Positions 48,404 through 60,651 of a stretch of 64,000 bases of DNA are shown in pieces. Origin of the DNA: Acidobacteriota bacterium (GTDB lineage: Bacteria > Actinomycetota > Acidimicrobiia > Acidimicrobiales > Ilumatobacteraceae). The DNA lies in contig JAGWWV010000003.1 of assembly GCA_018970175.1 (NCBI GenBank), positions 1 through 64,000 of the forward strand. Direction: 5' to 3'. A model generated the notes under the pieces. It saw nothing but the letters and a program-made list of their open reading frames with translations. It was not told where the DNA came from and made no database searches. Position numbers and translations under genes: made by a program. How positions within the stretch are numbered: the stretch's first letter is position 1; each line of letters begins with the position of its first letter.

Positions 48404-48476
48404 GCGCTCGTAGCTCAATGGATAGAGCATTTGACTACGGATCAAAAGGTTAGGGGTTCGAGTCCCTTCGAGCGCG
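48404..48476 (+). tRNA. tRNA-Arg (anticodon ACG)
   Basis: The 73-base gene has acceptor stem GCGCTCG/CGAGCGC, D-arm GCTCAATGGATAGAGC, anticodon ACG in TTGACTACGGATCAA and T-arm AGGGGTTCGAGTCCCTT. CCA is not encoded, unlike the other two tRNAs here. Its last bases are repeated at 50933-50956 (see repeat entries). Confidence 0.95.
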
Positions 48477-48480
48477 CTGG
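48457..48480. repeat. Left copy of tRNA-Arg 3'-end direct repeat (candidate att site)
   Basis: These 24 bases cover the T-arm and acceptor 3' side of tRNA-Arg and 4 bases beyond. They match 50933-50956 at 22 of 24 positions in the same orientation: one internal mismatch and one at the final base. tRNA 3' ends are common attachment sites for integrative elements. The pair brackets about 2.5 kb. Confidence 0.65.
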
Positions 48481-48762
48481 CGGAGACCGAGACCCGACAA
48501 AGGTTTCCAGGTCCTGCTCGACGGTTCAGTCTGTCCGCGTCAATCTTCCAACGAATCGTCGCCCAAGGTTCGCTCCTCAGCTGCAAGATCGGCGGTGACG
48601 GGCGTGTCACTCGACAGACAATCGACAGCCTCATTACCCGCCTCGGTGATTCCCAAAGGCCATGACCCCACGCCTCATTGGAACCATGGGGAATGGGTAG
48701 GGCGACGCTCCGACGACTTGGTAACGGACCGGTTCAGTCGCCGATGTTTCAGCGCGAAAGCG
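48481..48762. other. Non-coding stretch after tRNA-Arg
   Basis: About 280 bases with no convincing gene on either strand. A minus-strand frame through the tRNA has no codon or homology support and is rejected. It is the left part of the segment bounded by the tRNA-Arg 3'-end repeats. Confidence 0.5.
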
Positions 48763-50679
48763 CTACGCGCGCTGAGCGAGAACAATCACTCGGTCGCCGG
48801 CGCTGAACGCAATGCGTTCGTCTTTGGGCGGGTTGAGCCGGATTCCTGCCGAAAGAAAGCCGGGCCGGCCTACAGCAGCGGCACACTGATATCCGATAGC
48901 AACAACATCTGAATTGCGGGCTTCAGCGATGACCTCGGCAAAAGTTGCAGGTGATGTTGCCGCGTAACGCTCAAAGGGGTGCTTGTCAATCCCAGAACCG
49001 TGTGCACCAAAGAGATCACTGAACACTTCAACGAGTTGAGGGTTTTCACTCAATTGTGCAAGAAGCAAGCTGATGAGTTGCTGGCTCACGATGAAGTCAT
49101 CGCCATTGCCATCGCTTGCTAATTCAACATCGTCCGGGTCGCGCAACTCGGTGACGATGTTGCCCTCGGTCGTGGGGTGAACTGAACGCAAGTGCATCAA
49201 ACTCAGAAGCACACGAGCATCGGCTTCGTCGATCTGAAAAGGCGGGTTCTCACACAAGATGAGGTAGTGGTCGAACTCACCCGACTCCGTGGCTGCAACG
49301 ATTGACGCGCGTGCAATGGTGTCGCCTTCCACAAATTGCAGCGATTGATTGGCAAGACCGAGTCGGTTGATGTGAGCACCAACCGATGCTGGGTTATGAA
49401 GGTCGGGGTTCAGCAGCACCACCAACTCAGACCCCGAGGCCACGTCTGCCTCAATTTCCATGATGACGCGTGGCGCCATCTGGTTCCATCCGATGATGAG
49501 CGATCTCTCGCGCTTGAATTCGGCCGAGGCCGGTTGCTTCTCCGCATTTGGTTGCCAGCGCTCGGGCACCAGATCCAAGTTGAAAACGGAGTCATCTTCC
49601 GCGATACCAATGACCGAATCTCCATTGGCTACAACGGTGGAAAGCGGTGGGCTGAGCAGGACTGAGCCGTCATTCTGTTGCAACCCGATGATTGTCGCGT
49701 TGGATGAGGCGAGTAGTAGTTCGCCAAACGTTCGACCAACGAGGTTTTGAGGAACGACCTTTGCGTACATTTCATCACCGTCGAAGTCGAGCAACTCTTG
49801 GTAAATCAATCCAAGGCCAGCGGCTCGAGAGGTTTGTGCCGTAATGCGAGCAATGATTTCCGTCGGCGAAATAGGAACAAGGCGATTACCCACAACTTCA
49901 CGTAGGGCTTGCGAGGTGTCTTCGCCCTCGATTTCAGCGATGACTTGAACTGTTGATGATTCACCAAGAATTTTGTGCAAAGCCAAAATCACCTTGACGC
50001 CGTATGTGTTCGACTCTTCTCCTTCAGGGTTAAGCACGATGATTGATTTCGCATCGTGAGGGTTCATTCGCAGAAGGTCGGCGAGACGAGTTGGGAGACC
50101 ACTTCGGACAACCAAGCGCGAGTTACCCATCTCAGCGACATCACGGTTCAACGCATCGGTGACCTCAACAACGTCGTCGGGGCTGAGGATGACAATGACG
50201 TGGCCGGGGTTGCTTCGGTTGGCCTCAACGAGTTCCGAAATGATGCTCGGCAACTTGGCGTTGCGCCCGATGATGAGCGTGTGGCCACTTTCAATCACCT
50301 CTGACTTGCCGCGACGTAGTTCTTGCAGTCGAGTGTCGAGCCCACTGGAAATCAGACCGATGATTGCGGCACCAATGAAAATGCCGACAATAGTGATGAG
50401 CACACCGAACACGCGGTAACCCGACGCTTGGTCGCCGGTGAACGTTCCTGCATCGAGATAACGGCCCGCGGCGAGCCAGATACTTTCCAGAAAGCTGGTC
50501 GGCTCATTCGACGGCCCCAGCTTGAAGACCCATGTAAGTGCGGAAACTACAAGGACGAGAACTGCGGTGATTGTCCCAAGCCACAAGAGAACGGCACCGA
50601 TGCCACGGGCCAAACCATTGTCGAATCGATAACGAAGGCGTTGTTTGAGGGTGAATCGAGCGGGCATAGTGAATTTCAC
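48763..50679 (-). CDS. CASTOR/POLLUX-like ion channel protein with RCK/TrkA-N-type domains
   Basis: The 638-aa protein has an N-terminal amphipathic start (RYRFDNGLARGIGAVLLW), transmembrane helix about 27-50, a pore-like segment (WLAAGRYLDAGTFTGDQAS) and a second helix about 92-112 (VFGVLITIVGIFIGAAIIG). Two Rossmann-like RCK regions follow (HTLIIGRNAKLPSIISEL near 132 and SLIIGWNQMAPRVIMEIE near 395). This matches the CASTOR/POLLUX channel family known from plant nuclear envelopes and from scattered bacteria. Base composition is visibly less G+C-rich than neighbouring genes, suggesting transfer. Ion selectivity is unknown. Confidence 0.82.
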   Translation of the reverse strand: MKFTMPARFTLKQRLRYRFDNGLARGIGAVLLWLGTITAVLVLVVSALTWVFKLGPSNEPTSFLESIWLAAGRYLDAGTFTGDQASGYRVFGVLITIVGIFIGAAIIGLISSGLDTRLQELRRGKSEVIESGHTLIIGRNAKLPSIISELVEANRSNPGHVIVILSPDDVVEVTDALNRDVAEMGNSRLVVRSGLPTRLADLLRMNPHDAKSIIVLNPEGEESNTYGVKVILALHKILGESSTVQVIAEIEGEDTSQALREVVGNRLVPISPTEIIARITAQTSRAAGLGLIYQELLDFDGDEMYAKVVPQNLVGRTFGELLLASSNATIIGLQQNDGSVLLSPPLSTVVANGDSVIGIAEDDSVFNLDLVPERWQPNAEKQPASAEFKRERSLIIGWNQMAPRVIMEIEADVASGSELVVLLNPDLHNPASVGAHINRLGLANQSLQFVEGDTIARASIVAATESGEFDHYLILCENPPFQIDEADARVLLSLMHLRSVHPTTEGNIVTELRDPDDVELASDGNGDDFIVSQQLISLLLAQLSENPQLVEVFSDLFGAHGSGIDKHPFERYAATSPATFAEVIAEARNSDVVAIGYQCAAAVGRPGFLSAGIRLNPPKDERIAFSAGDRVIVLAQRA

Positions 50680-50932
50680 GCTAGCAACCGAGAGTCACCG
50701 CTCTTGCCAACGGGTGATGCTGAAGTGATGGAGCCATGGCTCCAACGAATCTCTCATCGAATGATACTTCTCTGAGCTCGCCGTCGTCCTGAACAGCAAG
50801 AAAACAAGCATCGTGAAATTCTGGTTATACGGAAGTCTCCTAAGTGGGAGATGTGACGGCACGGCGTAGTTGAGGAACAACCTGGCTGGTCACACGATTT
50901 CGCAGGACACCCATGGATTACGTTGTGAGGAT
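50680..50932. other. Non-coding upstream region of the channel gene
   Basis: About 250 bases with no supported gene, A+T-richer than the surroundings. It contains the 16-base palindrome at 50729-50744 and presumably the promoter of the channel gene. Confidence 0.5.
50729..50744. repeat. Perfect 16-base palindrome upstream of the channel gene
   Basis: TGGAGCCATGGCTCCA is its own reverse complement and lies about 50 bases upstream of the channel gene start. It could be an operator for a dimeric regulator or an mRNA hairpin. No regulator is encoded next to it. Confidence 0.45.
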
Positions 50933-50956
50933 TTCGAGTCCGTTCGAGCGCGCTGA
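50933..50956. repeat. Right copy of tRNA-Arg 3'-end direct repeat (candidate att site)
   Basis: Direct, near-perfect copy of 48457-48480 with one internal mismatch. It contains only the T-arm/acceptor 3' part, so it is not a second tRNA. It abuts the truncated Old Yellow Enzyme fragment, consistent with an integration or deletion junction. Confidence 0.65.
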
Positions 50957-50989
50957 TTCACTTGATGCGGCGCGCGCGTTCGAGCTCGA

Positions 50990-51181
50990 GTGACGCCCGA
51001 TGGAATTGACCGCGATTGCCTCGGTCATGACCAGTCCAAGTCCCCCGACTGCGAGCGACCCATGCCATTGCTGGCGCCATGCATTGACCACACCGTGGAC
51101 TACCGAGTATTGGCACATCGGCGAAATCCACAGACGGTTCTTGAATTGGACACCACGAATCGTGGGCGAACTGAAGAAGAG
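50990..51181 (-). pseudogene. N-terminal fragment of an Old Yellow Enzyme-type NADH:flavin oxidoreductase
   Basis: A minus-strand frame contains PTIRGVQFKNRLWISPMCQY, the classic start of OYE-family proteins, then SLAVGGLGLVMTEAIAV and GRHS. About 64 residues are recognisable; intact enzymes are 350-370 aa. Similarity stops near 50990, some 35 bases before the tRNA-Arg 3'-end repeat. No start codon is obvious before PTIRG. It is a gene remnant, probably truncated when the adjacent segment was inserted or lost. Confidence 0.7.
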
Positions 51182-51230
51182 CGATATCGAGGAAATACTA
51201 CTCAACCCGCCCGAAGTAACGTTGAGGTCG

Positions 51231-53045
51231 ATGTCGAAGAAGAAAGTTCTTACGGCGATTCTCGGGGCGCTTGTCGTCTGTGTGCCCCGTGCAGAAGCGG
51301 CGGCACCAAAGCCTGCGGCGCAGACGTACGACGGTGGTTCATTTGCGTGGCCGACCAGTCCGGGCATCGGATACATGGGGCTGTACATCGACGACGACAT
51401 CTCCCACACGCGATTGGTGTCGACACTCAGGAATTCGACGGGAAAGTTGTGCAAGTCGCTCGACGATGCGATCTGTGGCGGGTCGACCGTGTCGGTGTAC
51501 GCGATCCTCCCTCCCTGTGGATCGACCATTCAGATCGACTGCATCGAATCGATTGGTTCGAAGGCCAAGAGCGCAACCACCGAGACGGCAACGTTTTCGC
51601 GACTTTTCCCCGAAGCAGGACTTGCCGACTTCGCCGGTGATGCGTCGGCGAAAATTCCAACGGGTTCTTCGCCCAGTATTTGGACTCTGCCGAACACGCC
51701 GCACAACGCCGGGAACGAGTACATGGCGATCGTCTCGGTATCGGGGCAATCGACTTCATCGCGCCAATCGCTGACGTCGCCGACGATTCATGCGTCGCTG
51801 TACCCGGTGAAGGTTGTGACCGGGAGCTTTGCGCGCAATGTGCCGTCGCCCGAGCGCGGCGGAGTTTCACATCCATCGGGCGAGCCTTGGGCCAATTGCG
51901 CGACCGTCGCCGAAGGCTCGTGTGCCGCCCGCCAGGACTTTCCGGCGGATACCGCTTTTTCGTTGTCATTGCGTTTGTCGACGCCACCCACTGGTTGGCT
52001 GCACGGGCGCATCTTCGACCCGGACATTTCATTTTCGACATCGGCCGGCGTGACGACGCTGCGGGTACAGGCGAACCCCGCTCAGGTACCCGCGGTCGCG
52101 ACGTGGACCAAGGTGGACAGACTGCCGGCGGCTCTCGTGACGGGTGGTTGCACGTTGACGTCGATGTGTGGGCAGTCCAATCCACAGAGTGCCGGTGCGG
52201 AGTCAGCCGTGGAGGGTTGGCGGCCGTTCTACGAGGACAAAGCGTCGTGGGTGCGGGGACACTGGATGTACATGACCCTGACGAGTTCAATGGTCACGCC
52301 TCCGTCGGGCCCACCAGGTAATGCGTCGTCAACCAACTGTCTTGCGGACACCAGTGTTCTCCACGGTTTTGTGACCACGAACGCCACCGGTTACGCCGCT
52401 GGACCGCCGAACTACTCGCAGAGTGACAAGTCGTTTTCGTACACTGTCGCATCACCGCACTACAACGAGCGCGGCCAAGAAATCGTCGGCACGTACAACT
52501 TCGTCATGCGCAGTGCGACGGCGCGGTGTCTGTACGGAATCGGCGAGGGAAAGCTTTCCGTTACCGTGGCAATCAGCCAGAGCGATGGAAAGGATCGAAC
52601 GGCCGATGTCGCGGTTGCTGATGACGGCACGTGGTTGAAGGTGAGTGTGAGTGGTTTCCACTATTCATCGCCGGTCATCAAGACGACGCTGACGGCCGGG
52701 GAGGGAGTGGTCGCGCCGACGACATCGGTGGTGCCCAGCACAACGTCAACCACGGTTGTCCCGTCGCCGACCACGACGACGACGTTGCAGGTGCCGTCAC
52801 GACAGCCAACCGTGACCACGAAGCGGTCGGCATCGGCCGTGGCGGTGGCGCGCTACGCCGGCATGAAGGTTGTGTCGGGTGCGCGTGTTGCTCTGAAGGT
52901 GAGACCAGGTTCCGTCGCGGTGTGTCGGGTGCGGGGTGCGGCGATCATCGGCCTGAAGCCGGGTGCGTGCAGGCTCACCGTTTCAGTGACACCACGCGGT
53001 GGAAAGACGTCCTCTCGAAGTGTGAACCTCGTGGTCGCGGGTTGA
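51231..53045 (+). CDS. Large secreted protein of unknown function with Thr-rich linker and C-terminal module
   Basis: The 604-aa protein from ATG 51231 (GAGG just upstream) has a signal peptide (MSKKKVLTAILGALVVCVPR, cleavage near 23). A long central part with scattered Cys pairs follows, then a Thr/Ser/Pro linker of about 40 residues (about 490-540) and a C-terminal beta module ending SSRSVNLVVAG. That module shares its pattern with the end of the 1107-aa lipoprotein at 56050-59373. No known catalytic motif. An upstream open frame to 51000 overlaps the OYE fragment on the other strand and is not used. Confidence 0.72.
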   Translation: MSKKKVLTAILGALVVCVPRAEAAAPKPAAQTYDGGSFAWPTSPGIGYMGLYIDDDISHTRLVSTLRNSTGKLCKSLDDAICGGSTVSVYAILPPCGSTIQIDCIESIGSKAKSATTETATFSRLFPEAGLADFAGDASAKIPTGSSPSIWTLPNTPHNAGNEYMAIVSVSGQSTSSRQSLTSPTIHASLYPVKVVTGSFARNVPSPERGGVSHPSGEPWANCATVAEGSCAARQDFPADTAFSLSLRLSTPPTGWLHGRIFDPDISFSTSAGVTTLRVQANPAQVPAVATWTKVDRLPAALVTGGCTLTSMCGQSNPQSAGAESAVEGWRPFYEDKASWVRGHWMYMTLTSSMVTPPSGPPGNASSTNCLADTSVLHGFVTTNATGYAAGPPNYSQSDKSFSYTVASPHYNERGQEIVGTYNFVMRSATARCLYGIGEGKLSVTVAISQSDGKDRTADVAVADDGTWLKVSVSGFHYSSPVIKTTLTAGEGVVAPTTSVVPSTTSTTVVPSPTTTTTLQVPSRQPTVTTKRSASAVAVARYAGMKVVSGARVALKVRPGSVAVCRVRGAAIIGLKPGACRLTVSVTPRGGKTSSRSVNLVVAG

Positions 53046-53066: not shown

Positions 53067-54215
53067 GTGAGTACTGAACCGGCCGTGAAGAACGACGGCC
53101 GAATTCTCGGATTCGACGGCGTCAGGGCACTGGCCGTTTTGTTGGTGTTTGCGTCGCACATCTGGCTCGGTGTTCCCGAACTCATGAAGTACGGGTGGTA
53201 CAAGGTGTTCCCCCGAGGCGGCTTCCTGGGCGTCAACGTCTTCTTTGTTTTGAGCGGCTTTCTCATCACGTATCGGCTCTGGACGATTCGGGCGGGATCG
53301 CGTCGCGCGGGCTTGCGCAGCTACTTCGCCGGTCGCTTCATGCGGATCATGCCGCTCGCCCTGTTGTTTCTCGCCGCACACGTCGTCTATGTCGCGCTGA
53401 TCGGCTATCCACCCGACTACGGGCTCTCCGAGGAGATCACGGGGATCGTGTCCACGATCTTCCAGTACTCGAACTTCGCGATTCGCGGGAACACGAGCGT
53501 CTTGAAAGACAACGTCGCAATTTGGTCTTTGTCGATCGAAGGCCAGTTCTACATCGTCGCGCCGATGCTGGTCATTCCGCTCGCCATCGCCGCGCGCAAG
53601 ACCCGTTGGGCGGGTCTCGTACTGGTGGCGATTCTCATCCCGCTCGTTCTGAATGCGGGCCGCGTCTTTGACGAGAAAGGTTGGTTCGACGTCTACATCA
53701 GAACCGACACCCGCATCAGCAGCCTCGTCATTGGTGTGCTGGGCGCGTTCATCTGGTTGAACTTCCGCAACGCTTTGCCTCGCGTTCTCGGCTTTCTGTC
53801 GCTGCTTGCGGTTGTTGCGGCCGGCATCATCGTCGCCAAGGGGCGTGCAGACGGTTCGTTCATCTGGAAAGGCGGCATGGCGCTGTTCGACTTCGCCTGC
53901 CTTGTCGTGATTCTTTCGCTCTCATTCGCGTGTTGCCCGTTGGTGAGGATTCTCGAACTTCGTCCTCTCAAGTGGTTGGGTGAGATCTCGTACGGCCTCT
54001 ACTTGTGGCAGCTACCCGTCGTGTGGATGTTCAACCGTCACGGTTTGTCACTTGACTGGCGACTTCGTTTGATCCTGATACCCGTCATCGTCGTGGCGAT
54101 GTCGGCAGCGACCTACACGTACTTCGAACGACCGCTGATGCGCAGCGCCATCGCGCGGTGGCTGCGCGGTCCGGGTGGGAATCCCCGCCCCGTCGAGAGC
54201 GCCGGCGCTGCATGA
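53067..54215 (+). CDS. Acyltransferase 3 family membrane protein (OafA-like)
   Basis: The 382-aa protein starts FDGVRALAVLLVFASHIWLG (catalytic His) and has the second family motif GGFLGVNVFFVLSGFLITY and about ten transmembrane helices. A GRFMRIMPLA Arg pair follows. Such proteins O-acetylate surface polysaccharides, peptidoglycan or lipids. GTG start 21 bases after the secreted protein stop, so the two may be co-expressed. Confidence 0.9.
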   Translation: MSTEPAVKNDGRILGFDGVRALAVLLVFASHIWLGVPELMKYGWYKVFPRGGFLGVNVFFVLSGFLITYRLWTIRAGSRRAGLRSYFAGRFMRIMPLALLFLAAHVVYVALIGYPPDYGLSEEITGIVSTIFQYSNFAIRGNTSVLKDNVAIWSLSIEGQFYIVAPMLVIPLAIAARKTRWAGLVLVAILIPLVLNAGRVFDEKGWFDVYIRTDTRISSLVIGVLGAFIWLNFRNALPRVLGFLSLLAVVAAGIIVAKGRADGSFIWKGGMALFDFACLVVILSLSFACCPLVRILELRPLKWLGEISYGLYLWQLPVVWMFNRHGLSLDWRLRLILIPVIVVAMSAATYTYFERPLMRSAIARWLRGPGGNPRPVESAGAA

Positions 54216-54838: not shown

Positions 54839-55180
54839 TCAGAGCGACAGGCGTGGTGCGACGGCTGCATGGATGGCGACTTGAACGTCGGATTGGGGGG
54901 TGCCGCCGATGATGATCCATCGGTTGGGATCAGTGGCTGCGATGTCCGCAAAGCCGTCGGCACCCTCACGTGCGAAGCGGTCGAGATTGCGTTTGGCGAG
55001 GCGGCGGTCGGCTTCGTTGCGGGGAAGCTGGATCCACACGACGATGTCGGGAAGGTATTGGTCGAGTACCCGGGAATTGATGTCTCGGATCGTTTCGGCA
55101 CCGAGGCGTTGGCCGTAGCCCCGGTAGGCGCGTGTCGAATAGATGCAGCGGTCGCTGACGACGAGCTGGTCGACCATCAA
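54839..55180 (-). pseudogene. Truncated thymidylate kinase copy
   Basis: 113 codons match the C-terminal part (about residues 88-200) of the intact tmk at 60049-60651: VVSDRCIYSTRAYRGYGQRL, IRDIN, DIVVWIQLPRNEADRRLAKR, NRWII. The P-loop half is missing and a short insertion present in intact tmk is lost, so it cannot be a working kinase. It lies between an intact lipoprotein gene and the decayed lipoprotein copy, all on the same strand. Confidence 0.88.
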
Positions 55181-55530
55181 CCCTTCGTCGGGTTCGGTGG
55201 GAGCATTTGCAGGGTAGTCAGCTTCGTTGCGCTTACGTTGGCCTTGTCGTTGCTGCCGAAAGCATTGAATCCGTCGACAACTGCTTCATTGCCCATCGTC
55301 TCAAACTCATCGGTGATGCACTGCTTCTTGTCATCGGTCTCCGTGATTCGATCTTCGATCCGTCCGGCGAGGAGCTCGGCGAATTGGCCGGAGGTGAAGC
55401 GCGAGAACCCGAGACGGGTCATGTCGGTTTCTGATTCGGGGTCACCGACCGAGTCGAGGAACTTCTGGTCCGACAGGGTCTTGGATACTTCGGCTTCGAG
55501 ACCACTGACACCTCCACTGATTCAACTTCG
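55177..55530 (-). pseudogene. Decayed copy of the small acidic lipoprotein
   Basis: The frame preserves LSDQKFLDSVGDPES, FAELLAGR, KKQCITDEFETMGNEAVVDG and ATKLTTLQ, which align with KLLDSAGDPTSDE, VELLS, KQCLVDEFDKMGKDLVVEG and ATKLTAAM of the intact lipoprotein at 54234-54782. The signal peptide and lipobox are gone and the N-terminal half is missing; a stop codon lies just upstream in the frame. Its 3' end touches the tmk fragment. Confidence 0.75.
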
Positions 55531-55556
55531 GCTTGTGTTAGGAGAGCGGCAAGTCG

Positions 55557-55985
55557 ATGGCTCACTGGTACCGAGTCATGGCGGAGCTCGCAGGCCGTGC
55601 GTATGCGGAACAAATCTCTGTTCTGCGCAAAGAACACGATTTCAGCCAGGCGCATGCAAATGCTCTCGTGATGTATTCACTGGGTTCGACATCGTCGCGC
55701 CGTGTCGATACTCCCGATACCTATTTCGACGCTCTGCCCTCCGAACAGGCCGCGACGATGCGGTCGATTTTCTCGACAAGTCGCAAGAAGCACCCGAAAA
55801 TGGATCTCGTGACCGTCTGTAACCAGCCGATGTTGAAATTGGACGAGAACTACGTCCTCGGAGCATCGGCAGCAGAGCAACACATTCTGCTGGGACCCTG
55901 GGGTTCCGATGTAGTCGCGCGGGCCAGAAAACCTCTCGACGGATACCAAACCAACAAGACGACGATCAAGGTCCCCATTGATTGA
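55557..55985 (+). CDS. DUF4287/DUF1801-like domain protein
   Basis: The 142-aa protein starts MAHWYRVMAELAGRAYAEQI and has EHDFSQAHANALVMY (DUF4287-like), then TYFDALPSEQAATMRSIF and a C-terminal YdhG/DUF1801-like fold (MLKLDENYVLGASAAEQHIL). Similar proteins are small cytoplasmic proteins of unknown role, some annotated as iron chaperone-like. It begins just after the decayed lipoprotein copy, on the other strand. Confidence 0.65.
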   Translation: MAHWYRVMAELAGRAYAEQISVLRKEHDFSQAHANALVMYSLGSTSSRRVDTPDTYFDALPSEQAATMRSIFSTSRKKHPKMDLVTVCNQPMLKLDENYVLGASAAEQHILLGPWGSDVVARARKPLDGYQTNKTTIKVPID

Positions 55986-56049
55986 AAACCTGGTCACAGT
56001 CTCCTTCTGCGATTGGTCGACAATCGATTGATGGAACTCGACTGACTCC

Positions 56050-59000
56050 TCAACCGACGTTGAGAGTGATGGTCTTTTGGTCGCGACTTCCGCGGCGAGT
56101 TGTGATTTTGACCGAGACTCTGCACCTACCACGCTTGAGCGGAACAACATGAGGAACCACGTAACGACAGATACTTCGCGACTGCGGCGTCACTGTGACC
56201 TCGACACGATCTCCGGGTCGACTCGTGACGTTCAACTTCCGTAAGAGCGAACCGGTATCGATCCCACCTGCGTCACGGGCAGTCATGGCTTGAGCAACCT
56301 GAGCAATTGTGGGCTCTTGTGCGACGTCGGGTGCAACGGGGCTGTCCGCTGGTTCGATTGAATTCGGCGCGGTTGGCGATGGAGGAGTCGTGGTTGCGGG
56401 AGTTTGTTTGGCAACGGTCAGTTCGAGATTTGTCGGCTGTGTCGTCGTGGTTGCGGGAGTTTGTTGGGCAACGGTCAGTTCGAGATTTGTCGGCTGTGTC
56501 GTCGTGGTTGGGAGACTTGGAGATGTCGGCGCTTCCGGAATGAGTTCAGGAAGCGCCGTTCCATAAATCAGCGCGTTGGCTCGCTCGATCGGTGACGTCA
56601 CGGCGACGACCTGTTTTGTGGCTGGAATACTGCGTTGACGCGAGGCGACTGCCCACACATCGTGCAGTCCATTCGGCAGGTCGAACTCGTACGCCGGACA
56701 ATCCATTCCACGCGCGAGAACTTCATCCGGGCGAACGGGTTCGACTGGATCATCGACGAGGCACTTGACGATTGCACCACGATCAGAGACCGAACGTGCC
56801 TGCAGTGTGACGATCGATGCTCTCCCACCCATTGTCAGAATTGAGACCATCGGCGGCTCGAGTTCGCGTTGCAGCAGTCGCATGTCGCCGATTGGCGTGG
56901 GTCCGGTAGTGCCGCCGACCGAGTAGTAGATCTCTCGTGGTGCAAGATCGCGCACCCACACGCTCTGAGCTGTTTCCGGAAGATCGACGACAGTCGTGGC
57001 GTACCAGTCGTGAGCGCAGCCAATGAGGGCACTGGATGCTCCGAAGCGATTCGCGTAGTAGGCCGCAACTTTGCCCGGGGCAGTAGGCAGATAGTTGTCG
57101 GGTTGTGAAGCGTCAACTTTGCTGCCATTTACTGTGATGAGAGCACGCGGAGCCGAGGTCGAGGGCCCAAAATTGAGCACGGCAACTTCGGCGAAATACG
57201 GGGTGTACCAGTCGTTGCGTGGCGCACCTTTCGTGATGTTGTTCGTCACACGAAAACAGAAATTGTCGCGCTGCACGTCCGTCCACCACGCATCGTTGAA
57301 CATGGCTGGAAAGTCGCGAACACGACGCTCATTCGAAATTCTGAGGAGTGACTTGAGGTTGGGGACCATGCCATTGTTTTGGTAGATGTTGCCGCGAAAT
57401 ATTGTGTAGCGACGCAATGCTCCGCTGTATCCGAAATACTGAGGTTCCCCGTCTTCGCTCCACCCATAGATCTGGTCATTGTCAAACCTGACCGATCCTT
57501 GATTAAAGGCTCCATAGGCCCCATTGTGAAAGGTGCCTTCGGTTGTCCAGTTCCTTCGACCATCTGTGGTGAGTGATCCAGCGGATCCAACCACTGCCAT
57601 TGATGTGTTGGTCCATACGATGCCGAGCCCGTCAAAGACGTTCGCCGAACCGAACCTTGTCAGGTAGTCCCCCGGTGTTGGGCACTTCGCATTGCCCGAT
57701 CCGCATGTCGCCGTGGACCATTCGGCGAACGTTCCTCCTGCATTGTTGACACCCCCATCCAAGAGCCCTGGGGTAGCGTCCTTGGCGACCGAACCGAAAT
57801 TTGCTTCAGCTCGCGTGAACTCCGCGCCGATGGGGATTCTCCAGGCACTCGCATCGGTGATACGACGTGATTCGGCCTTGCTGTACGGCGACATGTCGAG
57901 GGGCTTCCCGGTCAGGTTTCTTGCTTCTTCGGCCGTTGCAACGCATTTGCTGAGGTTGTGGGTCTCAAAGCCACTCCACGACGCGAGAGGGGCGTAGTTG
58001 GTGAGAAGGTCTTCGTCGGGCAGGCACGACTTGAGAGCGTCGATCAAGCTGACTGACTCAGGTGAGCCGGAAGCAGTTGGTGCGAGCCTCCACATCTTGT
58101 TCGTCACCGTGTCGAGAACCTGTCCCTCGGGGATTTGCATGCTCGTGTGGAAGCCGATGATCGCTGTCGCCTGGCGCAGCACCGCATTGATCATGTTGAT
58201 CTGACGCAGGTCCGGGAGTCTGTCGGGTGTCACTACTGACTTGTAGAACTCATCAAAAATCGCGATTTGGGCAGCGTGAGACATCATGGTCATGACGAGT
58301 ACGCCGAGACGCTGCCAGTCGCTCGTGTCCTTGTTGGTGAGAAAGCGTTTGGAGATGAGTGTGCACTTCTGGACCTGGAACAACAGCCCTGAAGTTGATG
58401 ACGTCGTTTGATCGAAGGATGCATTACCGACAAAGTCCTCGGTCAGCGTGGTGATGAGCTGAAGCGGTGAGAGTGTCAATGTCTTTGCGGCCAAGCGCGC
58501 GAGGTCCGAGCGCTGGGTCGCAGTGAGTGCGGCCACCGATGTCGAGCTGTCGATGAGCGGATTGTCGATGAAGATGTTGCGCCACGTTTCCTCGACTGCC
58601 GTTGCCTTCGACCGCATCGAATTCCACGTTGCGGTCGCGGAGTCACGGCAGGTGTTTTGCGCGAGATTCTGCACCGCTGCAGTCAGTTCATTTACTGATT
58701 GCTGTAGGGAGTCGATCTTCTCGAGTGCTGCGTCTAGTTTTTGGTTGATTTCCTCAAGTGTCTTTTGGATCTGGACCAGTGCAGCTGCGGTTGCCGCGTC
58801 CCCGCCGCCGCCGAACAGCGACGTGAGGAATGGCGGTGCGCCAAGTGCATCAAGAGCCATGCCGATTCCTGCGCTTGCGAGGGATGCTCCAACCATTGCG
58901 CCGGCGTTGCCAAGTCCACCCAGTGATTTGGCAATTGCACCGGTCTTGTAGGTCGATCCAGAGGGCGTCTTCAAAGTCTTCGACGGTGAAGCGGTTGCGC

Positions 59001-59373
59001 CGCCACCTGTGCGAAGAGATGGACGGTCGGGTATGGGAGGTGGGCTCAGTTGATCGACGCGCGGGCTCGCTAATTGCGCACGGGCTGCGGTTCCACCCGT
59101 GTCGTAGTGACGCGGGTCCCATGAACCGCTCGTTATCGGTGTTTCATAGCCACGGTCCAGTGGTCGCGACACTGCCCGTTGATAGGCCTCAACCGAATAG
59201 TTGTCGTAGGGACTCTCGTAGATCGGGTTGTCTCCTCCCACGTTGCGGTCGCGGTTGGTTGTGGTCTCGGCGACGCCGCAAGAACTGAGAAATACTGCAA
59301 CGACAACGAAGCGGCAAATGCGGATCTTGCGTCTTGACGAAATCTGGACACACTCGCTTTTGCGGAAGTTCAT
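56050..59373 (-). CDS. Giant lipoprotein (1107 aa) with coiled coil, repeats and C-terminal module
   Basis: The frame starts at ATG 59373 and has a lipobox ending FLSSC (Cys32). A disordered Gly/Ser/Thr region and a hydrophobic Gly/Ala segment (AMVGASLASAGIGMALDALG) follow, then a coiled coil (ALVQIQKTLEEINQKLDAAL, about 210-260) and a large central part with FGYSGALRR-like and GTFHNGAYGAF segments resembling formylglycine/sulfatase-modifying folds. A Thr/Pro region with two 19-residue repeats and a C-terminal beta module follow. No recognised enzyme family overall. The body is A+T-richer than neighbouring core genes. Confidence 0.7.
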   Translation of the reverse strand: MNFRKSECVQISSRRKIRICRFVVVAVFLSSCGVAETTTNRDRNVGGDNPIYESPYDNYSVEAYQRAVSRPLDRGYETPITSGSWDPRHYDTGGTAARAQLASPRVDQLSPPPIPDRPSLRTGGGATASPSKTLKTPSGSTYKTGAIAKSLGGLGNAGAMVGASLASAGIGMALDALGAPPFLTSLFGGGGDAATAAALVQIQKTLEEINQKLDAALEKIDSLQQSVNELTAAVQNLAQNTCRDSATATWNSMRSKATAVEETWRNIFIDNPLIDSSTSVAALTATQRSDLARLAAKTLTLSPLQLITTLTEDFVGNASFDQTTSSTSGLLFQVQKCTLISKRFLTNKDTSDWQRLGVLVMTMMSHAAQIAIFDEFYKSVVTPDRLPDLRQINMINAVLRQATAIIGFHTSMQIPEGQVLDTVTNKMWRLAPTASGSPESVSLIDALKSCLPDEDLLTNYAPLASWSGFETHNLSKCVATAEEARNLTGKPLDMSPYSKAESRRITDASAWRIPIGAEFTRAEANFGSVAKDATPGLLDGGVNNAGGTFAEWSTATCGSGNAKCPTPGDYLTRFGSANVFDGLGIVWTNTSMAVVGSAGSLTTDGRRNWTTEGTFHNGAYGAFNQGSVRFDNDQIYGWSEDGEPQYFGYSGALRRYTIFRGNIYQNNGMVPNLKSLLRISNERRVRDFPAMFNDAWWTDVQRDNFCFRVTNNITKGAPRNDWYTPYFAEVAVLNFGPSTSAPRALITVNGSKVDASQPDNYLPTAPGKVAAYYANRFGASSALIGCAHDWYATTVVDLPETAQSVWVRDLAPREIYYSVGGTTGPTPIGDMRLLQRELEPPMVSILTMGGRASIVTLQARSVSDRGAIVKCLVDDPVEPVRPDEVLARGMDCPAYEFDLPNGLHDVWAVASRQRSIPATKQVVAVTSPIERANALIYGTALPELIPEAPTSPSLPTTTTQPTNLELTVAQQTPATTTTQPTNLELTVAKQTPATTTPPSPTAPNSIEPADSPVAPDVAQEPTIAQVAQAMTARDAGGIDTGSLLRKLNVTSRPGDRVEVTVTPQSRSICRYVVPHVVPLKRGRCRVSVKITTRRGSRDQKTITLNVG
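56392..56505. repeat. Two 57-base tandem repeats in the giant lipoprotein gene
   Basis: Two copies of a 57-base unit (19 codons each) encode TTTQPTNLELTVA with Q or K, then QTPAT. The copies differ by very few bases, suggesting recent slippage. They lengthen a Pro/Thr linker before the C-terminal domain. Confidence 0.8.
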
Positions 59374-59397
59374 ATTGGATAATCTATACAGTAGCGA

Positions 59398-59409
59398 AGC
59401 ATATGTGCT
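59398..59409. promoter_or_regulatory. Candidate TetR operator in the divergent promoter region
   Basis: AGCATATGTGCT is an inverted repeat (AGCA-N4-TGCT) midway between the TetR gene (start 59431) and the giant lipoprotein gene (start 59373). TetR-family genes often bind such sites to control themselves and the divergent neighbour. TATAGAT on the minus strand just upstream of the lipoprotein start is a candidate -10. Confidence 0.3.
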
Positions 59410-59430
59410 GTCAGGTGAAAACGTGATGCG

Positions 59431-60063
59431 ATGAGTTCCCGAGTGACACGTGGCAACGGACGTCGGACTGCAGATTTGTTGATCGATTGTGCGATCGCAG
59501 AACTCGAAGAAAAGGGGTACGACGCTTTCAATATTGATGCCGTTCTTGAGCGATCGCGCGCTTCGCGAAGTTCCTTGTATCACCACTATGGAAGTCGGGC
59601 CGGCTTGCTTGCAGCCGCCGTGCTGCACGACATCGAAGCGAAGTCAACGCGCGACAACGCCGACTTTCGTGACGCGATTGTCCGGTGCGTCACGCGAGAT
59701 GACTTGAAGAGTATCGTCGAGCGTGCGGTAAAAGGGTCAGGATCGGCGTCGCGGCGCAGTCTGCGGCTCGCGCGTACACGCGCGTACCAGCTCGCCGAGC
59801 ACGATGAAGGTATTGCTGCCCGGATCGCGCTCCTCACGAAAACCGAGTCGGCAAAGTTGGCGGATTCGCTCTTCGATCTGCAGGAACGCGACCTTATTCG
59901 TCGCGACGTCGATGCAGCGGTGCTTGCTCTCTGGATCGGGTCAGTCTTTTATGGGCGTGTTGCATTCGATTTTACGAACGCGACGCCGTCACAAAGCCGC
60001 GCATGGGAATTGATCACCATTGATTCATTGATGGCAATGTTGTCAGGGTTAAAGGTGCGGTGA
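59431..60063 (+). CDS. TetR family transcriptional regulator
   Basis: The 210-aa protein has an N-terminal HTH (LIDCAIAELEEKGYDAFNID, then RASRSSLYHHYGSRAGLLAA) and a helical ligand-binding domain. Divergent from the giant lipoprotein gene, with 57 bases between starts, so that gene is a likely target. Its end overlaps the 3' end of tmk by 15 bases. Confidence 0.88.
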   Translation: MSSRVTRGNGRRTADLLIDCAIAELEEKGYDAFNIDAVLERSRASRSSLYHHYGSRAGLLAAAVLHDIEAKSTRDNADFRDAIVRCVTRDDLKSIVERAVKGSGSASRRSLRLARTRAYQLAEHDEGIAARIALLTKTESAKLADSLFDLQERDLIRRDVDAAVLALWIGSVFYGRVAFDFTNATPSQSRAWELITIDSLMAMLSGLKVR

Positions 60064-60651
60064 GACGGCTGCGTGGATGGTGGCCTGAACGTCGTCTTTG
60101 GGGAGGGTGCCGTCGATGATGATCCACCGGTTGGGGTCGGCGGCCGCCATTTCCGCAAAGCCGTCGGCGATTCGGGCGAAGAAATCAGCACCCTCGCGTT
60201 CGAAGCGGTCGAGATTGCGCTTGGCAAGGCGGCGCTCGGCTTCGTCGCGGGGAATCTGGATCCACACGACGAAGTCGGGAAGGGTGTGGTTGAGTGCCCA
60301 GGTATTGATGTCGCGGATCGTGTCGACGCCAAGGCGTCGGCCGTACCCCTGGTAGGCGAGCGTCGAATAAATGCTGCGGTCGCTGACGACGTGCTGGCCG
60401 GCCGCGAGTGCGGGCTCGATGACCTGGCTCATCAACTGCGCACGGTCGGCGGTCATGAGCAAGAGCTCGGTGCGCGGGTCGATGTCGGTGTTTTCGGGAT
60501 CGGCAAGAATCTCGCGCAGCATCGCGCCGATGCGCGTGCCGCCCGGTTCACGCGTGGCGACTGCTCCGAGTGTCTCGGCGAGTCGCTTGACGTGCGTGCT
60601 CTTACCGCAACCCTCGAGTCCTTCGAACGCGATGTATGTGCCGCGGGCCAT
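60049..60651 (-). CDS. tmk: Thymidylate kinase
   Basis: This 200-aa protein has the P-loop FEGLEGCGKSTHV, the DR(Y/H)-like TREPGGTRIG and the LID/substrate region DRSIYSTLAYQGYGRRLG. It phosphorylates dTMP to dTDP. It overlaps the topA stop by one base, so it is coupled to topA. A truncated copy lies 5 kb away (54839-55180). The usual downstream partner holB is about 19 kb away. Confidence 0.95.
   Translation of the reverse strand: MARGTYIAFEGLEGCGKSTHVKRLAETLGAVATREPGGTRIGAMLREILADPENTDIDPRTELLLMTADRAQLMSQVIEPALAAGQHVVSDRSIYSTLAYQGYGRRLGVDTIRDINTWALNHTLPDFVVWIQIPRDEAERRLAKRNLDRFEREGADFFARIADGFAEMAAADPNRWIIIDGTLPKDDVQATIHAAVSPHL

Follow-up and report, generated by a model that had tools for sequence, protein, structure and literature searches.

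In the tycheposons of marine cyanobacteria cargo is placed at tRNA genes, and the DNA analysed here, a 64,000-nucleotide stretch of one contig from an uncultured member of the actinobacterial family Ilumatobacteraceae (the window), likewise carries cargo at such a gene. Integrative elements and genomic islands that target tRNA genes leave partial tRNA copies upon integration, as described in PMC9897764. The window resembles such islands in having an intact tRNA at one boundary and part of that tRNA at the opposite one, with foreign cargo between them and channel-free relatives; it differs from them in that no recombinase was found, the copy is short and degenerate, and foreign DNA is also located outside the copy. 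A literature search found nothing on tRNA-Arg integration in Acidimicrobiia, and nothing that evidently concerned integrases at tRNAs in Ilumatobacteraceae. The reading that we favour, at somewhat better than even probability, is that integration at a tRNA-Arg hotspot, possibly in more than one layer, left a scar that has since decayed and that now encloses a channel acquired by horizontal transfer and probably activated by Ca2+. The type of scar is an ordinary and known one; what is unusual is the cargo, and that it is found on one or the other side of a single tRNA.

The tRNA-Arg locus of the window

The tRNA-Arg(ACG) gene was located with ARAGORN at 48404..48477 on the plus strand, and an own-genome search found it to be the sole complete copy in the assembly. 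Its 3' end and the TG that follows form the left repeat copy (48457..48480, plus strand), a putative attL. The sequence TTCGAGTCCCTTCGAGCGCGCTG at 48457-48479 recurs at 50933-50955 with one mismatch, and extension by one base gives 22 of 24 matches between 48457-48480 and 50933-50956, confirming the repeat that the first-pass annotation had reported; in 100 dinucleotide-preserving shuffles there were no matches to it within 3 mismatches. By local alignment the right copy is 31 bp in length (50925..50955, plus strand; 27 identical) and covers the T-arm and acceptor stem; this degenerate tRNA end may represent either an attR or a tandem-island junction. Resemblance to tRNA-Arg 5' of these 31 bp was no better than that of shuffled sequence, and the other two tRNAs of the window had no comparable copy within 9 mismatches of 31. 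The bases directly 3' of the tRNA-Arg are TGG in the window and CCA in all nine congeners in which the gene was found, making this the only genome without CCA among the ten of the genus with a tRNA-Arg read. The tRNA-Ser and tRNA-Thr of the window have kept their CCA, and the TG after tRNA-Arg is also present after the right copy.

Between the copies the only long open frame is a gene encoding a 634-aa CASTOR/POLLUX/DMI1-like channel (48763..50667, minus strand), which is overlain by shorter antisense ORFs. It is separated from the tRNA-Arg by 285 bp of host-like G+C (48478..48762; 0.60), in which neither homology to the DNA 3' of tRNA-Arg in congeners nor a recombinase remnant was found, and from the right copy by 257 bp with a G+C of 0.51 (50668..50924); neither a tRNA 5' half nor a G003-type tRNA promoter is recognisable at 50668-50930. 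The G+C of the channel gene is 0.546 vs 0.612 for the window, its GC3 of about 0.586-0.587 is the second lowest of the 35 mechanical ORFs of at least 250 aa in the window, and low G+C extends from the channel gene as far as about 51.24 kb, which roughly coincides with the bounded segment. A PHROGs search of the seven peptides between the copies revealed no recombinase; the ten peptides searched in all gave only three matches, to families of unknown function (E 0.2-0.3). Serine recombinases were covered by this PHROGs search alone. A PF00589 search of the whole genome gave matches only on contigs C18 and C56, none of them between the copies, and we infer that these two genes are more like housekeeping XerC/D, since the strongly matching class is also present in G002, G003 and G011. 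The single A+T-richer gene and the lack of an integrase that had been described for this interval were thus both borne out.

A truncated old yellow enzyme (OYE) gene had been placed immediately outside the right copy, and this feature is real but weak. The N-terminal fragment of a NamA-like OYE at about 50978..51178 (minus strand) matched the NamA model at 1e-12 (47.8 bits; profile residues 5-73 of 339) and Pfam Oxidored_FMN at 2e-4, below the curated cut-off, and inspection showed that its C-terminal part is missing and that there is no start codon at the expected place. When a full-length parent was sought in the same genome, the only match was the fragment itself; matches at E <=0.001 were present in 6 of 41 genomes, the best other being 45% in G019. 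An ORF of 681 aa with no Pfam or NCBIfam match (51000..53045, plus strand) overlaps the fragment, and its true start is therefore probably further in; in G011 no counterpart was found within the 9 kb downstream of tRNA-Arg. It is followed by an acyltransferase 3 gene (53067..54215, plus strand), which in G011 begins about 235 bp beyond tRNA-Arg and shows where the two sequences again have DNA in common.

Farther to the right, in the region 54839-60651, a single place in G011 is matched both by a fragment at 54849-55163 and by the sequence from 60053 onward, and the approximately 4.9 kb between them, which have no match there, contain a 1192-aa ORF and a regulator that by eye looks TetR-type. 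This region looks like a second insertion with partial duplication of a thymidylate kinase-like gene (named by eye). On inspection, the large ORFs at 51000-53045 and 56050-59628 share a similar-looking C-terminal stretch of about 60 residues.

tRNA-Arg(ACG) in related genomes

The congener most similar to the window among those compared at the locus was G011 (78% over 8 kb vs 69-70%). At this place G011 is without the DNA found in the window at 48.48-53.05 kb; its tRNA-Arg with CCA is followed by about 235 bp, which have no match in the window, and then by the acyltransferase, so the window carries about 4.6 kb of extra DNA and not 2.5. A LysM gene lies directly beside tRNA-Arg, with no channel, in G004, G006, G007, G009, G011 and G012, and no channel was found in the DNA read 3' of tRNA-Arg in these six (only 325 bp in G006). 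As to the empty site that the first-pass annotation had suggested seeking, G011 and five others lack the channel at tRNA-Arg, but the gap in G011 runs to about 53.05 kb. The outer flanks of the 2.5 kb are joined in no relative, G011 missing more than that length, and 23 comparisons of the DNA 3' of tRNA-Arg in relatives with the window flanks gave one weak 27-column match (G007) that was taken as chance. No tRNA-Arg match was obtained in G001, G005 and G010, and the contig of G008 begins 12 bases before the gene. In G002 and G003 the channel is between LysM and tRNA-Arg, that is, 5' of the tRNA, whereas in the window it is 3', and no tRNA-Arg copy was found beside it in the stretch read. Compared with G003, G007 and G012, the genomes G004 and G009 (L045, L049) have an additional stretch of about 4.85 kb placed exactly at the 3' end of tRNA-Arg, with ORFs that by eye resemble a TetR regulator, an FMN-dependent reductase and a Rieske oxygenase, and no tRNA repeat was found at the far end of this stretch.

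Several genomes show that tRNA-Arg(ACG) has been used repeatedly for integration in this actinobacterial order. A first scan for copies of its 3' end covered 61 genomes, with at most 8 candidates scored in each, and among the candidates scored linked copies downstream on the same strand and contig were present in G018, G020, G029, G039, G041 (two), G048 and G055. A local look at 21 genomes, partly chosen because a copy had already been seen and giving counts that are not a frequency, found a linked copy in those seven and in G116, besides the window; G016 had two tRNA-Arg copies on another contig, and 11 genomes had no second copy in the stretch read. The distance from tRNA to copy was 3.2 kb in G018, 7.1 kb in G020, 14.1 kb in G029, 7.0 kb in G039, 3.6 and 20.7 kb in G041, 21.8 kb in G048, 1.7 kb in G055 and 3.7 kb in G116. 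In these genomes the copies are 43-52 bp in length and start at tRNA positions 25-32, while the right copy of the window starts at position 46.

PF00589 was searched in 12 genomes, a set that did not include G116. Integrases were located inside four segments (G029, G048 and both of G041), and none inside those of G018, G020, G039, G055 or the window; by eye, there was no integrase among the ORFs listed for the G116 segment. The islands of G029, G041 and G048 resemble the window in using the same tRNA with a copy downstream in the same orientation, and the three copies of G029 and G041 end in TG as it does; they differ in having 45-46 bp copies from tRNA position 30-32 and an internal tyrosine integrase. 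The window thus fits among the segments at this tRNA that lack a tyrosine recombinase, with a copy that is shorter and older-looking. In G041 (L057, L108) two tRNA-Arg islands are arranged in tandem, with a tyrosine integrase near each start and a 45-46 bp tRNA copy at each end.

Origin and predicted function of the channel

Presence of the channel and both repeats at this locus in all relatives had been named as the observation that would count against an acquired segment. This is not the case: of the 13 genomes of the genus, three have the channel (the window, G002 and G003), and it was not found in the other 10, which are 76-96% complete. Members of the channel family occur in 26 of 221 genomes of the bacterial family, one of them at 4e-4 only. 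Since bacterial members are this common, nothing points to a plant source, and the earlier description of the channel as plant-type applies to its protein family and not to its origin.

The channel of the window is 88% identical to those of the two low-G+C congeners G002 and G003, although five neighbour proteins are only 50, 67, 79, 80 and 83% identical between the window and G003. Within the low-G+C clade the channel is 92% identical (G002-G003) and the neighbours 88-98% (G003 vs G004, G007 and G009). GC3 is 0.587 for the window channel, 0.74-0.82 for five host neighbours and 0.51-0.53 for the G002 and G003 channels. In the channel tree these three proteins form one clade with 100/100 support, adjoined by MAG proteins 52-55% identical, and the other family members found (26-41% identical) stand apart; the tree alone does not prove transfer. 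Four-fold divergence between G002 and G003 is 0.29 for the channel and 0.52 for LysM, and because the channel is low in this pair as well, synonymous divergence alone is not decisive. Horizontal transfer between the window lineage and that of G002 and G003 is well supported by divergence and composition, the direction being probably into the lineage of the window.

A phage origin of the channel was considered and rejected: five stretches of the viral contigs matched a pattern, none encoding a channel relative, and the best viral fold match was a phage protein of 328 aa that contains a potassium-channel domain (TM 0.31 of query). The exact 32-base tRNA-Arg end was found 0 times in the viral contigs. 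In three other genera, channel genes (L007, L064, L066, L067, L071) lie about 35-175 bp from tRNA-Gly, tRNA-Leu or tRNA-Cys, and adjacency of channel genes to tRNAs may be enriched.

Both the tandem RCK gating ring and the Castor_Poll_mid domain (Pfam, 6e-23; 81.3 bits vs a cut-off of 26.7) are present in the window channel, and among solved structures the CASTOR and DMI1 gating rings come closest to it by sequence (3e-43 to 4e-41, CASTOR ring 3e-43). An AlphaFold2 model built on a 22-row alignment reached a mean pLDDT of 84, with values of about 56-77 for the membrane part; it has helices at 23-47 and 82-107 with a shorter helix at 59-71 between them, followed by two RCK domains. The best Foldseek matches in the PDB were again the CASTOR and DMI1 rings (TM 0.87-0.88 on target; E 1.7e-39 and TM 0.88 for 6o6j). 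As in plant CASTOR/DMI1 (6o6j, 6o7a, 7vm8; PMC6697748), there is a tandem RCK ring with the cluster-II Ca2+ residues and no TVGYG filter, the filter region reading LDAGTFTGD; the model differs in having one membrane-helix pair, where four segments are predicted for the plant channels.

Residue numbers from PMC6697748 were placed on the printed chain by one offset that fits 13 of 13 named residues. According to that paper, the cluster-II ligands are S345, E493, D553 and D554 by side chain and E552 and N491 by backbone. S345, E493, E552, D553 and D554 are kept in the window channel as S152, E299, E357, D358 and D359, and the position of N491 is occupied by G297. Only one of the five named cluster-I residues, D444, is kept (D250), and D442, H463, R589 and R590 are replaced by G248, T269, N395 and Q396. 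PMC6697748 also reports that nodulation was abolished by D442A, E493A and E493Q, but not by D444A, and speculates that activation is the role of cluster II and inhibition that of cluster I. As D442 is required in the plant, its loss here argues against gating identical to that of the plant channel. A Ca2+-activated cation channel is the likeliest function, and it would act as a tetramer opened by cytoplasmic Ca2+ on the tandem-RCK gating ring.

Possible routes to the present arrangement

Under the favoured reading of an integration scar, foreign DNA would have entered the tRNA-Arg 3' end in the lineage of the window, so that TG from the attachment site of the arriving DNA replaced the encoded CCA, and a second copy of the tRNA end, eroded by now, was left at 50925-50955. 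The recombinase may have been lost or may have acted from elsewhere, and the one gene surviving between the copies would be the channel, presumably from the low-G+C congeners G002 and G003 or their source. The OYE fragment and the 681-aa ORF could be what is left of another insertion beside the first, in the manner of the G041 tandem islands. Several observations sit poorly with this reading: no recombinase or remnant was found between the copies, the right copy ends in TG where a simple attR should carry the native CCA and begins at position 46 where other islands begin at 25-32, the G+C of the 285 bp adjoining the tRNA is like that of the host, and the channel can evidently arrive without this element, since G002 and G003 carry it 5' of tRNA-Arg with no repeat found. 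We call the segment a remnant and not an element because no recombinase was found within it. Of the tiny integrated element or remnant proposed in the first-pass annotation, the foreign gene, the channel-free sites in relatives and the tRNA-directed scar stand; a discrete 2.5-kb element is not shown, as the DNA absent from G011 at this place extends as far as about 53.05 kb, no recombinase was found, the right copy has degenerated, and the channels of G002 and G003 lie on the 5' side of the tRNA, where the sequence read shows no repeat.

The main rival, possible at rather longer than even odds, is that the channel arrived separately beside an older scar, entering a variable tRNA-flanking spot by homologous or illegitimate recombination, with the tRNA copy a relic of an unrelated integration. 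The channels of G002 and G003, upstream of this tRNA and with no repeat found, the similarly repeat-free 4.85 kb at the tRNA 3' end in G004 and G009, and the greater degeneracy of the window copy relative to those of other islands all agree with such an arrival, but the change of CCA to TG at the intact tRNA together with the TG at the copy fits one site-specific event, and the low G+C from the channel to about 51.24 kb corresponds roughly to the bounded segment. A broader scheme, which we regard as rather improbable, is that the channel is a single-gene cargo carried between species of this one actinobacterial genus via tRNA-Arg(ACG), settling on either side of it with recombinases supplied by larger resident islands.

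It is quite unlikely that the segment is a mini-element that can still move, with a recombinase from another locus acting in trans. Bounded segments without a PF00589 match do occur in G018, G020, G039 and G055, and the genome has two other PF00589 genes; however, these appear more like housekeeping XerC/D, the two copies have diverged from each other, and the viral contigs had neither a channel relative nor the exact 32-base tRNA end. Slightly less probable still is an ancestral LysM-channel-tRNA order, as in G003, in which a duplicate of tRNA-Arg arose upstream of the channel and only the 3' end of the old tRNA persisted. This would account for the order and orientation of a minus-strand channel followed by a plus-strand tRNA remnant, but LysM is directly beside tRNA-Arg in G004, G006, G007, G009, G011 and G012, the short LysM-tRNA spacer, on inspection like that of G011, suggests that the intact tRNA is at its ancestral place, the remnant on inspection resembles the tRNA type of the window more than that of G003, and channel divergence and GC3 favour transfer. 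A single crossover of a donor channel-tRNA circle with the recipient tRNA was also tried and rejected: it gives the right order, yet the left tRNA is without the donor (G003-type) 3' half, and the donor promoter and tRNA 5' half are not recognisable at 50668-50930. Chance similarity beside an ordinary vertical channel gene is very improbable, for although the repeat is only 31 bp, 100 shuffles gave 0 matches, divergence, composition and distribution depart from vertical descent, and G011 and others lack both channel and copy.

With the window, public genomes present the tRNA-Arg(ACG) hotspot in channel-free, filled, tandem and decayed states, and a CASTOR/DMI1-type channel gene that appears to move between lineages. 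Bacterial relatives that have the proposed activating Ca2+ sites and are without most of the proposed inhibitory one may offer simple material on the gating of the plant symbiosis channel.
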